This document shows positions 21,986-27,012 of a stretch of 64,000 bases of DNA, piece after piece. Location of the stretch: positions 62,001-126,000 of the forward strand of contig CALUNG010000002.1 of the NCBI GenBank assembly GCA_944321955.1, given 5' to 3'. The notes under the pieces were generated by a model. That model was given only the letters and a program-made list of their open reading frames with translations, had not been told where the DNA came from and ran no database searches. This DNA is from an uncultured Alistipes sp. (GTDB lineage: Bacteria > Bacteroidota > Bacteroidia > Bacteroidales > Rikenellaceae). The position numbers and the translations under genes are program-made. The stretch's first letter is position 1. Each line of letters begins with the position of its first letter.

Positions 21986-24448
21986 TTATCGGATCTGTGC
22001 ACCGGCACGCGTCTCGAACTGCTTCTGCAGGTTCGCCATCGTGCGCTCGATCACCTTGTCGTTGAGGGTCTGGGTCTTGTCCTCGAGGATAAAACTCAAC
22101 GCATACGACTTCTTGCCTTCCGGGAGTTTGTCGCCTTCATATACATCGAACAGCGATACGCTCTTAAGCAGTTTCTTCTCCGTTGCAAAGGCAATGTCGC
22201 GCAACTGCGAGAAGGTAACAGACTTGTCGACGAGCAGAGCGAGGTCACGACGTACTTCGGGATACTTGGGCAGCTCTTCGGCTTCGATCCTGTGCTTCTT
22301 GGTAGCCTTGACCAGGCGGTCGAAATTGAATTCGGCAAAATAGACCGGCTGCTTGAGATCGAACGTCTTGAGAATCTTCGGGCTGACGGATCCCATCTGC
22401 ACCAGTTCCTTGCCGTTGAGCGACAATACTATCGCTTCACCGAACAGATCGCTTGAGAGCGTATCGGTCGTCAACTTGTATATGTCGAGTCCGAAACGAC
22501 GCAGAAGCAGTTCTACGGCCGCCTTCAGCGTAAAGAAGTTCGAACGCTCCGACTTCGAATTCCAGCTCTGCTCGGCGCTCTCACCTGTAACAACCATTCC
22601 GAGGTGGTAGTCCTCCGAATATGGCGACAGCGCATCCTCGGCAGTACGGTTTTCGGCATGATAGAAATAGCAGTTGCCGAATTCGTAAAGCTTCAGATTG
22701 CCGTTGCGGTGGTTTACATTCAGCTGCACGGCCTCCATCATGTTGAAGAGCAATGTCTGACGCAGCACGTTGAGGTCCGAGCTGAGCGGATTGAGTATGC
22801 GTACGCAATTTTCGGCCTTGTATGATGCCAGTCCGTCGTAATATGCGGCCTTTGTCAGCGAATTGGACATGATCTCCGTAAATCCGCGGTCGGTCAGGAA
22901 ATCCGACGCAAGGTTTACAAGACGCGGTTTGTCGGGTTTCTGCACGTACGACAGGGTAGAGTTGACGTGTTCCGGGATCTCGACGTTGTTGTATCCGTAT
23001 ATGCGGAGAATATCCTCTATGAGGTCGGCTTCACGCTGAACATCGACACGATACGGCGGTACGGCCACACTGAGCACGCCATCCTTTTCGGCTTCGATCT
23101 TCACCTCGAGAGCCGCAAGAATCTCGCGCACGGTCTGCTCGGGAATCTTCTTGCCGACAAGGGCATCGAGACGCTCGAACGACATGTCGAAACGGAAATA
23201 TTCGGCAGGTTTCGGACAAATATCGGTTATCTCGCTCGAGATCTTGCCTCCGGCCAGCTCCTTCATGAGCAGGGCGGCACGTTTCAGCGCATAGATCTGA
23301 ATATTGGGATCTATTCCACGCTCGAAACGGAACGACGAATCGGTATTAAGGCCGAAACGTTTGGCAGTCTTGCGTACCCAAACGGGATTGAAATAGGCGC
23401 TCTCGATAAATACGTTGCGCGTCGTGTCGCTGATACCCGAATCGAGGCCACCGAATACGCCGGCGATACACATCGGGCGTTCGTCCGAGCAGATCATCAG
23501 ATCCTGCGAGGTAAGCTTGCGCTCCACTCCGTCGAGCGTTACGAACGGAGTTCCATCCTCGCAGCACTTGACCACGACGTGATGTCCGTCGATCTTGTCT
23601 GCATCGAACGCGTGCAGCGGCTGGCCGAGTTCGAACAGGACGAAATTGGTTATATCCACCAGATTGTTGTGCGGGTTAAGGCCGGCGGCACGCAGGTAGT
23701 TCTGCATCCATTCGGGCGAAGGGCCGATCTTGCAACCGGTAACCGTAATACCGGTATATCTGGGGCATGCTTCGCTGTTTTCGACAGTAATGTCGATCGG
23801 CATGTCGTGGTTGTCGACGGCAAAAGCATCGACACTCGGCAATTTGAGCGACACGTTCTGACCGCGGCTGCGGAGATATGCCGCCAGGTCACGCGCCACT
23901 CCTATATGCGAAGCGGCATCGATACGGTTCGGCGTAAGGCCTATGCCGATCAGATAGTCGTCATGTATGTGGAGGTATTCTCGTGCGGGAGTACCGACTA
24001 CGGCATCGTCGGGCAGTTCCATGATACCGGCATGATCGGTGCCAATGCCGAGTTCATCCTCTGCACAGAGCATGCCCAGAGACTCCACACCTCGTATCTT
24101 GCTGCGTTTGATCTTGAACTCTTCATCGCCGCCGTTGGGGTAGAGCACGGAACCTACCGTGGCGCATAAGACCTTCAGACCGGCACGGCAGTTTGATGCA
24201 CCGCAAACGATTTGCAGGGGTTCGCCGCTGCCGACATCGACTGTCGTGATGTGCAGGTGGTCGCTGTCGGGATGATCGACGCAGGTCAGCACCTGACCTA
24301 CAACAACGCCGGCGAGGCCGCCGCGAATGGTCTCGACCTTTTCAAAGCTTTCGACTTCGAGACCGATATCCGTCAGGATGACCGATATCTGTTCGGCCGA
24401 CAGGTCGGTGTCGATATAATTCTTCAGCCAGTTGTATGAGATATTCAT
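21986..24448 (-). CDS. pheT: Phenylalanine-tRNA ligase beta subunit
   Basis: 820 residues, the full bacterial PheT length. Visible domains: N-terminal tRNA-binding EMAP-like domain (about 40-150, GVVVGQVLTCVDHPDSD), B3/B4 editing domain (about 210-390), B5 domain (about 400-475), catalytic-like core and C-terminal anticodon-binding ferredoxin fold (about 725-820, PKYPEVRRDLALLVDKSV). It pairs with PheS, which is not in this window, to charge tRNA-Phe and edit mischarged Tyr. The gene is monocistronic with its own promoter and terminator. Confidence 0.97.
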   Translation of the reverse strand: MNISYNWLKNYIDTDLSAEQISVILTDIGLEVESFEKVETIRGGLAGVVVGQVLTCVDHPDSDHLHITTVDVGSGEPLQIVCGASNCRAGLKVLCATVGSVLYPNGGDEEFKIKRSKIRGVESLGMLCAEDELGIGTDHAGIMELPDDAVVGTPAREYLHIHDDYLIGIGLTPNRIDAASHIGVARDLAAYLRSRGQNVSLKLPSVDAFAVDNHDMPIDITVENSEACPRYTGITVTGCKIGPSPEWMQNYLRAAGLNPHNNLVDITNFVLFELGQPLHAFDADKIDGHHVVVKCCEDGTPFVTLDGVERKLTSQDLMICSDERPMCIAGVFGGLDSGISDTTRNVFIESAYFNPVWVRKTAKRFGLNTDSSFRFERGIDPNIQIYALKRAALLMKELAGGKISSEITDICPKPAEYFRFDMSFERLDALVGKKIPEQTVREILAALEVKIEAEKDGVLSVAVPPYRVDVQREADLIEDILRIYGYNNVEIPEHVNSTLSYVQKPDKPRLVNLASDFLTDRGFTEIMSNSLTKAAYYDGLASYKAENCVRILNPLSSDLNVLRQTLLFNMMEAVQLNVNHRNGNLKLYEFGNCYFYHAENRTAEDALSPYSEDYHLGMVVTGESAEQSWNSKSERSNFFTLKAAVELLLRRFGLDIYKLTTDTLSSDLFGEAIVLSLNGKELVQMGSVSPKILKTFDLKQPVYFAEFNFDRLVKATKKHRIEAEELPKYPEVRRDLALLVDKSVTFSQLRDIAFATEKKLLKSVSLFDVYEGDKLPEGKKSYALSFILEDKTQTLNDKVIERTMANLQKQFETRAGAQIR

Positions 24449-24527: not shown

Positions 24528-24558
24528 TTTGTTTTTAGCCGAAAAAGCGTTATATTTG
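24528..24558 (+). promoter_or_regulatory. Promoter of the trp leader and trpB
   Basis: TTTG (24528-24531), exactly 19 bases, then TATATTTG (24551-24558): a full match to the Bacteroidetes primary-sigma promoter. Transcription should begin about 24562-24566, placing the leader peptide 15-18 bases downstream. Confidence 0.8.
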
Positions 24559-24579
24559 CAGAAACGAAGACAGCGAAAC

Positions 24580-24663
24580 ATGATTCTCAATGCACAATAT
24601 TGGTGGTGGCACTCTTTGGCTTTCGTAGACAATGAGGTGACACATCGTGTGCATGTGAGATGA
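24580..24663 (+). CDS. trp leader peptide with three consecutive Trp codons
   Basis: A 27-codon ORF begins [13 protein letters not shown] and ends VHVR before a TGA at 24661. Codons 8-10 (24601-24609) are TGG TGG TGG, the hallmark of a tryptophan-sensing leader peptide. A promoter lies just upstream and an intrinsic terminator (24690-24726) just downstream, before trpB. A ribosome stalled on the Trp codons would cover roughly to 24622 and leave ACAATG (24629-24634) free to pair with CATTGT in the left terminator arm, blocking termination; a ribosome that reaches the stop codon would not. The mechanism is inferred; the codons and hairpin are seen directly. Confidence 0.8.
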
Positions 24664-24689
24664 CATAAAAGGCATATTTTTACAAACCG

Positions 24690-24726
24690 ATCCCATTGTT
24701 TACGTGTTGAACAATGGGATTTTTTC
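24690..24726 (+). terminator. Attenuator terminator before trpB
   Basis: Perfect 11-base stem ATCCCATTGTT (24690-24700) / AACAATGGGAT (24710-24720) followed by a run of T, lying 25 bases before the trpB start. Confidence 0.88.
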
Positions 24727-24751
24727 TTTAATAACCAAACCAGTTTCCATC

Positions 24752-26113
24752 ATGAAGACAAAGAAATTCGAGCTCTCCGAGAGCCAGATGCCCAGGCAAT
24801 GGTACAACATTGTGGCCGACATGCCCAACAAGCCGCTGCCGCCATTGCATCCTGCAACCAAGAAACCCGTAACGTTCGAGCAGATGCGCGCCATCTTCGC
24901 CGATGAACTCATCCGTCAGGAGATGTCCACCGAACGCTACATCGACATACCCGAAGAGGTTCAGGAGATATACCGCATCTGGCGTCCGACGCCGCTTGTG
25001 CGTGCATACGGGCTCGAAAAGGCCCTCGATACCCCCGCCCGCATCTTCTTCAAGAACGAGAGCGTCTCACCCGCCGGCTCGCACAAGCCCAACACGGCCG
25101 TTCCGCAGGCATACTACAACTACAAACAGGGCATCAAACACCTGACGACCGAAACTGGTGCCGGTCAGTGGGGTTCGGCCATTGCCTTCGCCGGCAGCCA
25201 CTTCGGCATCGACGTGCAGGTATTCATGGTCAAGGTCAGCTATGATCAGAAACCGTACCGTCGTCTGATGATGAATACATGGGGAGCCGAATGCCTGCCG
25301 TCGCCGACGACGCTGACGGCATCGGGACGTGCCGCACTCGAACGCGACCCGAATTGTCCCGGCAGTCTCGGACTGGCCATATCCGAAGCCGTCGAAATGG
25401 CCCTGCAGCGCCCCGAGGATACGCGTTACTGTCTGGGCAGCGTACTGAACCACGTCCTGTTGCATCAGACCGTAATAGGTCAGGAGGCCGTTGCGCAGAT
25501 GGAGATGGCCGATGCCGAGCCCGACATGGTCATCGGCTGTTTCGGAGGCGGCAGCAACTTTGCCGGCATAGGATTCCCGTTCCTGCGCAAGAATCTGACC
25601 GAAGGGAAGAAGATGCGCGTCATAGCCGTCGAACCGGCAAGCTGCCCCAAACTCACTCGCGGAGAGTTCCAGTACGATTTCGGAGATGTGGCCGGTTATA
25701 CGCCGCTCATGCCGATGTATACGCTCGGACACAACTTCCAGCCGTCGAACATCCATGCCGGTGGTCTGCGCTATCACGGCGCCGGATCGATAGTCAGCCA
25801 GCTGCTCAAGGACAATCTGATCGAGGCGCAGTCCGTCGGACAGAACGAGACCCTTGCAGCAGGTATCCTGTTCGCCAAGGCCGAGGGCATAATTCCGGCT
25901 CCGGAGTCTACTCATGCCATAGCGGTAGCCATACGCGAGGCACTGAAGGCCAAAGAGGCAGGGGAGTCGAAGACCATACTGTTCAACCTGTCGGGTCACG
26001 GCGTGATAGATCTCTACGCCTACGAGCAGTATCTGGCCGGAGCGCTCAAGGATTATTCACCGAGCGACAACGAGATACGCAAGACAATCGATCAGTTGGA
26101 GAAGTTGATTTAA
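24752..26113 (+). CDS. trpB: Tryptophan synthase beta chain, TrpB2 type
   Basis: 453 residues, longer than classic TrpB (about 400) and with the N-terminal extension typical of the TrpB2/TrpB-like group. The PLP lysine is K112 in [20 protein letters not shown] (about 133-141) and the glycine loop CFGGGSNF are the substrate and phosphate sites. It joins indole and serine to make tryptophan. It is not in a trp operon and has no trpA next to it, so it may act as an indole-salvaging enzyme. The leader-peptide attenuator directly upstream ties its expression to Trp supply. ATG at 24752 follows the attenuator; it ends with a 4-base overlap with the converging EamA gene. Confidence 0.95.
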
Positions 26114-27012
26114 CGCGTGCCGAGATAGAGAAATACCATACCGATGAGTATGAAACACAGGTCGAGGGCCTTGCTGCGGAGATTCTTCTCATGAAACAGC
26201 AGGGCCCCGCACGCAAATGATACTATGACAGAACTGCGGCGCACCATCGACACGATCGAGATCATGGCTCCATCCTGGCTGAGCGCCGTAAGGTATGCGA
26301 AGTCGGCACACGACAGGAATATGGAGATGCAGGGTATCGCCCACGACCAGTGGAAGGCCTTGTCTTCGTGCCGATGCCGTGGCACCCATACCGCTGCGAC
26401 GAACAGCCCCATCATGACGAACTGATAAAACGTGTACCAGCTCTGCACGAATATCGGGTCGAGATGCTGCATGATGAATTTGTCGTACAGGCCGCTTGCC
26501 GCGCCTGTAATCGCGGCTGCAGCCACGAACAGGATCCAGATGTTGTGCGTGAAGTCGAGGCCTTCGCTCTTGCCTGCACGGCTCAGCAGGAACAGCGACA
26601 GTATGGCGAGCAGTACGCCGATCCACTGGAATAGATTGAGATGCTCACCGAAGATAAGCATTGCTCCGACAAGCGTAAGCACCGGTCGGGTAGCGTTGAT
26701 CGGGCCGACGATCGTAATCGGCAGGTGCTTTATGCCATAATATCCGAATACCCACGAAACCAACACTATGGCCGACTTTATGATAACCATTGCATGAGCT
26801 CCGGCATCACCTGCAGGCATGTCGAACCGTGTTCCCTCGAACCATCCGAGTCCGAACTCGGCGGAGATTATGAACGGGCTGAAGATGAGAGCAGAGAACA
26901 GTGTATTGAGCAGCAATACCGGAGGTACGGCATTGTCGGTCAGCGCCTTTTTCTTTGCAACGTCATAGAGGCCGAGCAGTGCGGCGGAAAGGAAAGCGAG
27001 AGCAAGCCACAT
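26110..27012 (-). CDS. EamA/DMT-family membrane transporter
   Basis: 300 residues with about ten membrane helices in two EamA halves (about 1-140 and 155-300); the first half ends in [21 protein letters not shown], a typical EamA segment. The substrate is unknown. It lies 5 bases downstream of lysA and is probably co-transcribed with it, which raises the idea of amino-acid export, but that is a guess. It differs clearly in sequence from the other EamA protein at 3934-4812. Confidence 0.9.

Follow-up and report, generated by a model that had tools for sequence, protein, structure and literature searches.

The window, which is the whole 64 kb stretch of DNA analysed, belongs to a genome of 2.06 Mb in 30 contigs that is 92% complete. 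It carries trpB2 (24752-26113, + strand, ATG at 24752), a gene for a TrpB-like PLP enzyme. The product scores 625.7 bits with TIGR01415 (cut-off 518.85) and 727.6 bits with NF009057 (cut-off 366), and among solved structures it is best matched by 6hul, 4qys, and 6hte, all tryptophan synthase beta chains. The best match in named records is from Alistipes sp. RGIG9040 (90% identity), with the records nearest to the window's genome possibly excluded; the window is accordingly regarded as Alistipes-like. The 5' neighbour is pheT (21986-24448), which lies divergently on the opposite strand and has one intergenic region in common with trpB2. An unnamed gene (26110-27012), whose TIGR03340 match is weak and below the cut-off, is convergent with trpB2, and lysA comes after it. 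With these divergent and convergent flanks, trpB2 is located outside any trp operon, as the original prediction had stated.

The leader of trpB2, with all its parts on the + strand, starts from a promoter-like pair, TTTG-N19-TATATTTG (24528-24558), in which TTTG (24528-24531) and TATATTTG (24551-24558) are separated by 19 nt. The pair follows what we take to be the Bacteroidetes promoter pattern. As raw, uncontrolled counts, TAnnTTTG is observed within 120 nt upstream in 40 of 47 leaders from the window's family, and the whole pair (spacer 17-21) in 20 of the 47. Downstream is a leader ORF of 27 codons (24580-24663), conserved upstream of the trpB2 genes of relatives, with three consecutive TGG (Trp, WWW) codons at 24601-24609. 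No other ATG ORF of 60 codons or fewer, on either strand of the window, contains a run of three Trp codons. An intrinsic terminator (24689-24729) of 14 pairs, with arms at 24689-24702 and 24708-24721 and a U-rich tract to 24729, separates the ORF from trpB2. Since pheT is divergent, this terminator serves no upstream gene. The promoter-like pair, the ORF with its Trp codons, and the terminator had all been proposed before and are confirmed from the sequence. Two features expected of an attenuator, consecutive Trp codons in a short leader ORF and an intrinsic terminator between leader and gene, are thus present.

The leader is strongly folded, at -49.3 kcal/mol against a mean of -35.3 (sd 3.67) for shuffled sequences, none of 200 of which was as low. 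The MFE fold has an outer helix around the Trp codons (arms 24585-24596 and 24648-24660). In an alignment of 45 trpB2 leaders, A1, strand 1 (24612-24618) pairs with 24630-24636 as helix 1:2. Strand 2 (24625-24636) is, from the helices of A1 and the masking folds described below, both the protector partner and the antiterminator strand. Strand 3 (24694-24703) comprises those positions of the left terminator arm and loop with which strand 2 pairs as helix 2:3, and the terminator itself is helix 3:4. The original prediction had the hexamer ACAATG (24629-24634) pairing with the left terminator arm. The pairing holds, but the hexamer is part of a longer strand, 24625-24634, whose ten pairs with 24694-24703 include one G-U. 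That prediction lacked strand 1 and the outer helix, which are added here. At the site, no match to any Rfam family attained the gathering score, and at a permissive E-value only sub-threshold matches to L10_leader and mir-451 were obtained. The search for further copies in the same genome returned the trpB2 leader and three weak matches, one to its own reverse strand (E 0.035) and two others (E 0.17 and E 0.27).

Neither TrpA nor indoleglycerol-phosphate synthase was found in the genome, and the model of each matched in 14 of 14 control genomes; as the genome is 92% complete, these absences are not certain. TrpA is found in one of 81 genomes of the genus, or one of 35 if only the more complete genomes are counted. 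As assigned from sequence, the conversion of indole and serine to tryptophan is the sole tryptophan-making step found in the genome, and the bacterium seems to lack de novo synthesis of tryptophan. The tryptophanase model TIGR02617 matched nothing in the genome, which says little because a Bacteroides control genome was also unmatched. Given the missing TrpA and indoleglycerol-phosphate synthase and the rarity of TrpA in the genus, TrpB2 probably uses indole from outside. In the available text of one study (PMC11535334), TrpB2 of B. thetaiotaomicron gave a growth benefit to an E. coli trpA mutant only beside a wild-type, indole-secreting strain, which its authors read as the use of secreted indole. 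It is likely that the role of TrpB2 here is indole salvage, with indole presumably taken up by the cell. The description of the enzyme as an indole-salvage type fits the two absences.

Trp leaders upstream of trpB2 are conserved in the family. The search of 150 family genomes gave 65 upstream regions, counted after the exclusion of L001, which repeats the window's gene, and L013, which has a truncated trpB2. A leader was defined as an ORF that starts with ATG, spans no more than 60 codons, and contains at least two, or at least three, consecutive Trp codons, and dinucleotide shuffles were the control. Two or more consecutive Trp codons were found in 50 of the 65 regions vs. 27 of 2600 shuffles, and three or more in 43 of the 65 vs. 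1 of 2600. With L057, whose WWW frame the stricter filter rejected, there are 51 leaders. For the other 14 trpB2 genes, a leader could not be recognised; six of these genes belong to genomes in which canonical TrpB was not found. No leader was found for trpB2 of L053, L055, and L056. In L059, L061, and L062, the Trp leader is observed 330-444 nt upstream of trpB2. Leaders are more frequent in cases with TrpB2 as the sole TrpB found (39/45) than in those with canonical TrpB as well (12/20; Fisher p = 0.023, with genomes counted as independent and some incomplete), which is a weak link.

A collection with organism names contains 80 trpB2 loci, 77 of them with sufficient upstream DNA. A leader was matched in 55 of the 77, of which L169 and L197 were judged to be chance matches, L141 has no terminator, and the other 52 largely repeat genomes of the family set. 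The matches include Alistipes, Odoribacter, Butyricimonas, and Sanguibacteroides. Five loci from Parabacteroides, Tannerella, and Tannerellaceae in this collection gave no leader match. In Alistipes as in other Bacteroidales, the Trp codons, the terminator, and the competing strand are thus conserved ahead of trpB2, as seen in the alignment that had been suggested as a check on the locus.

Six of the 51 leaders are outside A1: L052, L057, and L065 for their unusual spacing, and L059, L061, and L062 for their position over 300 nt upstream. L060, with no clean leader, is also outside. The aligned leaders have a common plan of ATG, Trp codons, strand 1 (CTCnTTG), strand 2 (GTAAACAATGAG), strand 3 (CCCGTTGTTTAC), strand 4, and a U-rich tract. 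Invariant columns are mostly those of the TGG codons, and the CTCnTTG of strand 1 would account for the conserved residues after WWW. Helix 1:2 is formed in 81.2% of the cells of A1, helix 2:3 in 93.8%, and helix 3:4 in 93.6%; changes on both sides are seen in 6 of 7, 4 of 10, and 10 of 14 pairs, respectively. Structures slid by 1-3 columns pair in only 35-63%, 35-53%, and 38-58% of the cells, and the covariation scores of the three helices exceed those of all slid versions. The observed pairing and covariation scores were reached by none of 500 shuffles for each helix, where related sequences are treated as independent. Some counts of double changes go the other way. For helix 1:2, double-change cells (19 vs. 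14) and pair types (18 vs. 15) are both more numerous in the version slid by +3. For helix 2:3, a slide of +1 yields more double-change pairs (5 vs. 4), and four such pairs were reached by 76 of 500 shuffles. Apart from these counts, A1 contains the mutually exclusive protector (1:2) and antiterminator (2:3) expected of an attenuator. The outer helix is present in many relatives, where its sequence varies; in 20 of the 45 leaders it pairs as well as, or better than, the top 5 of 100 shuffles, and the mean z is -1.5.

The geometry of the switch was analysed by folding each leader to just beyond strand 3 with the RNA hidden up to a chosen point, an equilibrium proxy for co-transcriptional folding. 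Strand 2 starts at a median of 15 nt (10-20) beyond the last Trp codon. When the RNA is hidden to 0-12 nt past that codon, as by a stalled ribosome, helix 2:3 is formed in 43 of the 45 leaders, so that a ribosome on the control codons frees strand 2 in silico. The two that fail, L058 and L066, have strands similar to those of operon leaders. Hiding more of the RNA abolishes the helix: it is formed in 38 of 45 leaders at 18 nt, in 3 at 21 nt, and in none at 24 nt. Helix 2:3 is already formed in 28 of 45 leaders when the mask stops 12 nt short of the end of the last Trp codon, and in 9 of 45 when it stops 30 nt short. Without a mask, 37 of the 45 leaders have strand 2 paired upstream, and 4 of the 45 have it in helix 2:3.

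It is probable, at roughly 90%, that a classic, ribosome-sensed transcription attenuator controls the stand-alone trpB2; from its parts, conservation, covariation, and in silico geometry, we infer the response in the cell and the supply of indole from outside. When charged tRNA-Trp is ample, or the leader is not translated, strand 1 and the outer helix would hold strand 2, the 3:4 terminator would then form, and transcription would stop before trpB2. When charged tRNA-Trp is short, a ribosome would stall at the three Trp codons and cover strand 1. Strand 2, which starts about 15 nt past the last Trp codon, would be freed to pair with the left terminator arm, and trpB2 would be transcribed. TrpB2 would then join serine to indole from outside. 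The original prediction of classic attenuation is supported, at the level of sequence, by the conserved leader parts and by compensatory changes in the competing helices.

Other explanations for the leader were considered. Short ORFs are common and terminators are ordinary, and a plain terminator beside a chance ORF, with no regulation, would need nothing more; but the divergent pheT leaves no upstream gene for the terminator to serve, three-Trp leaders are far more frequent than in shuffles (43/65 vs. 1/2600), and strand 2 covaries with strand 3, so that this is the least probable of the explanations, with hardly any weight. Control by a riboswitch, a T-box, or a bound protein, with the ORF incidental, would suit a long, well-folded leader ahead of a tryptophan gene. 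It is nonetheless very improbable, as the site gives no Rfam match at the gathering score, and the invariant columns of A1 belong mostly to the TGG codons, placed where a stalled ribosome would switch the fold. A more serious alternative is that the leader is nothing distinct but a diverged copy of the Bacteroid-trp leader, and it depends on the relation of the two, as follows.

The Bacteroid-trp leader RNA of Bacteroidetes is Rfam RF01692 (gathering threshold, 49 bits), as described in the available part of Weinberg et al. 2010 (PMC2864571). RF01692 matched none of 40 trpB2 leaders at the gathering score. It gave no match in the window at the gathering score or at a permissive E-value, and none in the window's genome at E up to 10. 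It matched 2 of 17 trp-operon leaders of the family and 5 of 20 loci of the order, all five of which precede canonical trpB. As most operon leaders are missed as well, the misses on trpB2 leaders are weak evidence alone. R1, a covariance model built from A1, has matches at E up to 0.1 in 251 of 393 order genomes; at so permissive a threshold, chance alone could account for a few dozen. TrpB2 was found in 142 of the 393, and by-eye comparison placed an R1 match directly upstream of trpB2 in at least 17 of the 142, the window included. Of 30 R1 loci (L070-L099), 6 precede trpB2 (the window included), 15 canonical trpB, and 6 TrpE-like genes, identified by eye from the protein sequence, which was seen for five of the six; for the remaining 3, the script found no leader.

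The wiring of strand 2 differs between the two groups. In trp-operon leaders, strand 2 (GTCGTGAG) is complementary to the terminator loop and right arm (CTCACGAC), unlike in trpB2 leaders. Duplex energies for family operon leaders (L100-L119; 17 of 20 regions, with none in L101, L105, which has 286 bases, and L107) favour the loop and right arm in 14 of 17, with 3 ties and no case of the left arm. In the family trpB2 set, the left arm is preferred by 37 of the 43 leaders scored and the right side by 4, and 2 are ties. In L027 and L045, the two A1 leaders outside this set, no terminator was obtained; the hairpin scored was clearly the wrong one in L039 and L050 and was truncated in L037. The contrast is less sharp in loci of the order, where operon-type leaders (n = 19, L082 being from the window's family) split into 13 right, 4 left, and 2 ties, and trpB2 leaders (n = 5) into 4 left and 1 tie. 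In A2, an alignment of 30 of 36 operon-type leaders that leaves out L081 and five trpE-like ones, the right-side helix is formed in 94.6% of cells. Both sides have changed in 4 of its 8 pairs, and loop positions that are not part of the terminator stem are among these. Helix 3:4 of A2 is formed in 99.1% of cells, and helix 1:2 in 80.8%; in the latter, 25 of the 30 leaders leave one position unpaired, and the count of double-change pairs was reached by 81 of 500 shuffles. One member of the genus, G128, has both types, a left-wired leader before trpB2 (L006) and a right-wired leader before the trp operon (L116). In L204 (G209:C131, reverse strand), two Trp leader-plus-terminator units, each with WWW, stand in series before a gene read as trpE. 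L203 (G415:C1, about 180-450) also has two units in series before a gene read as trpE, the first leader reading by eye Trp-His-Trp-His and the second WWW.

Descent from Bacteroid-trp without distinction would explain why both leaders, compared by eye with the RF01692 alignment, have a Trp-run leader ORF inside an extended 1:2 hairpin, why R1, built from trpB2 leaders, also finds canonical trp-operon leaders, and why some trpB2 leaders of one genus (L057, L058, and L066) have strands like those of operon leaders. Against it, the two are wired differently, to the left arm in 37/43 and to the loop and right arm in 14/17, and RF01692 finds none of the 40 trpB2 leaders, the latter with little weight of its own. 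A mere diverged copy is considered unlikely, although far less so than the two explanations above. The trpB2 leader is called here a trpB2-specific variant of the classic attenuator. A broader and tentative proposal, which we hold at somewhat less than even odds, is that Bacteroidales have two separate Trp attenuators of opposite wiring, the operon one using the loop and right arm and the indole-salvage trpB2 one the left arm, and that lineages in which de novo synthesis was lost kept only the latter, as a switch for the use of neighbours' indole in tryptophan shortage. As a guess, the right-side antiterminator may nucleate on the terminator loop to beat the local hairpin. Such a loop-first, right-arm antiterminator, if true, would be an unusual antitermination geometry.

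For gut Bacteroidales, the predicted mechanism leads to a rule of indole salvage that can be tested, namely that TrpB2 should be produced only while charged tRNA-Trp is in short supply. Gut bacteria classed as plain tryptophan auxotrophs may in some cases recycle indole instead; in the available part of a pathway survey (PMC9026213), the partial tryptophan pathways given all include TrpA, with no TrpB2-only class. The leaders add an attenuator group that the models of Rfam 15 missed in the 40 leaders tested, and the related switches of opposite pairing form a pair for studying the evolution of attenuators. A Trp attenuator before a stand-alone trpB2 in Bacteroidetes was not recognised among the literature matches listed, a scope that does not cover a 2010 comparative study (Lopatovskaya et al., cited in PMC4833913). 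The mechanism is classic; as far as these searches show, the target and lineage, the non-recognition by Rfam models, and the opposite wiring are new.

The classic trp attenuator of the E. coli trpL type has tandem Trp codons, strands 1-4, an intrinsic terminator, and a left-arm antiterminator. The trpB2 leader shares all of these. It differs in that it would control one indole-using TrpB2 rather than a full trp operon, in that its outer helix encloses the Trp codons, and in that it is found in another phylum. In Corynebacterium diphtheriae, the accessible part of one report (PMC1262725) gives candidate attenuators before trpB1EDGC and trpB2A. As in the present case, a Trp leader peptide and a terminator are predicted ahead of a gene called trpB2, a likeness based on the name, but that trpB2 shares its operon with trpA and does not stand alone. 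The trpRBA salvage genes of Chlamydia trachomatis are, in the accessible portions of two reports (PMC6504234, PMC7755916), regulated via TrpR and the iron-dependent repressor YtgR. They are similar to trpB2 here as tryptophan salvage genes under the control of tryptophan supply, but they include both trpB and trpA and are controlled by repressors.
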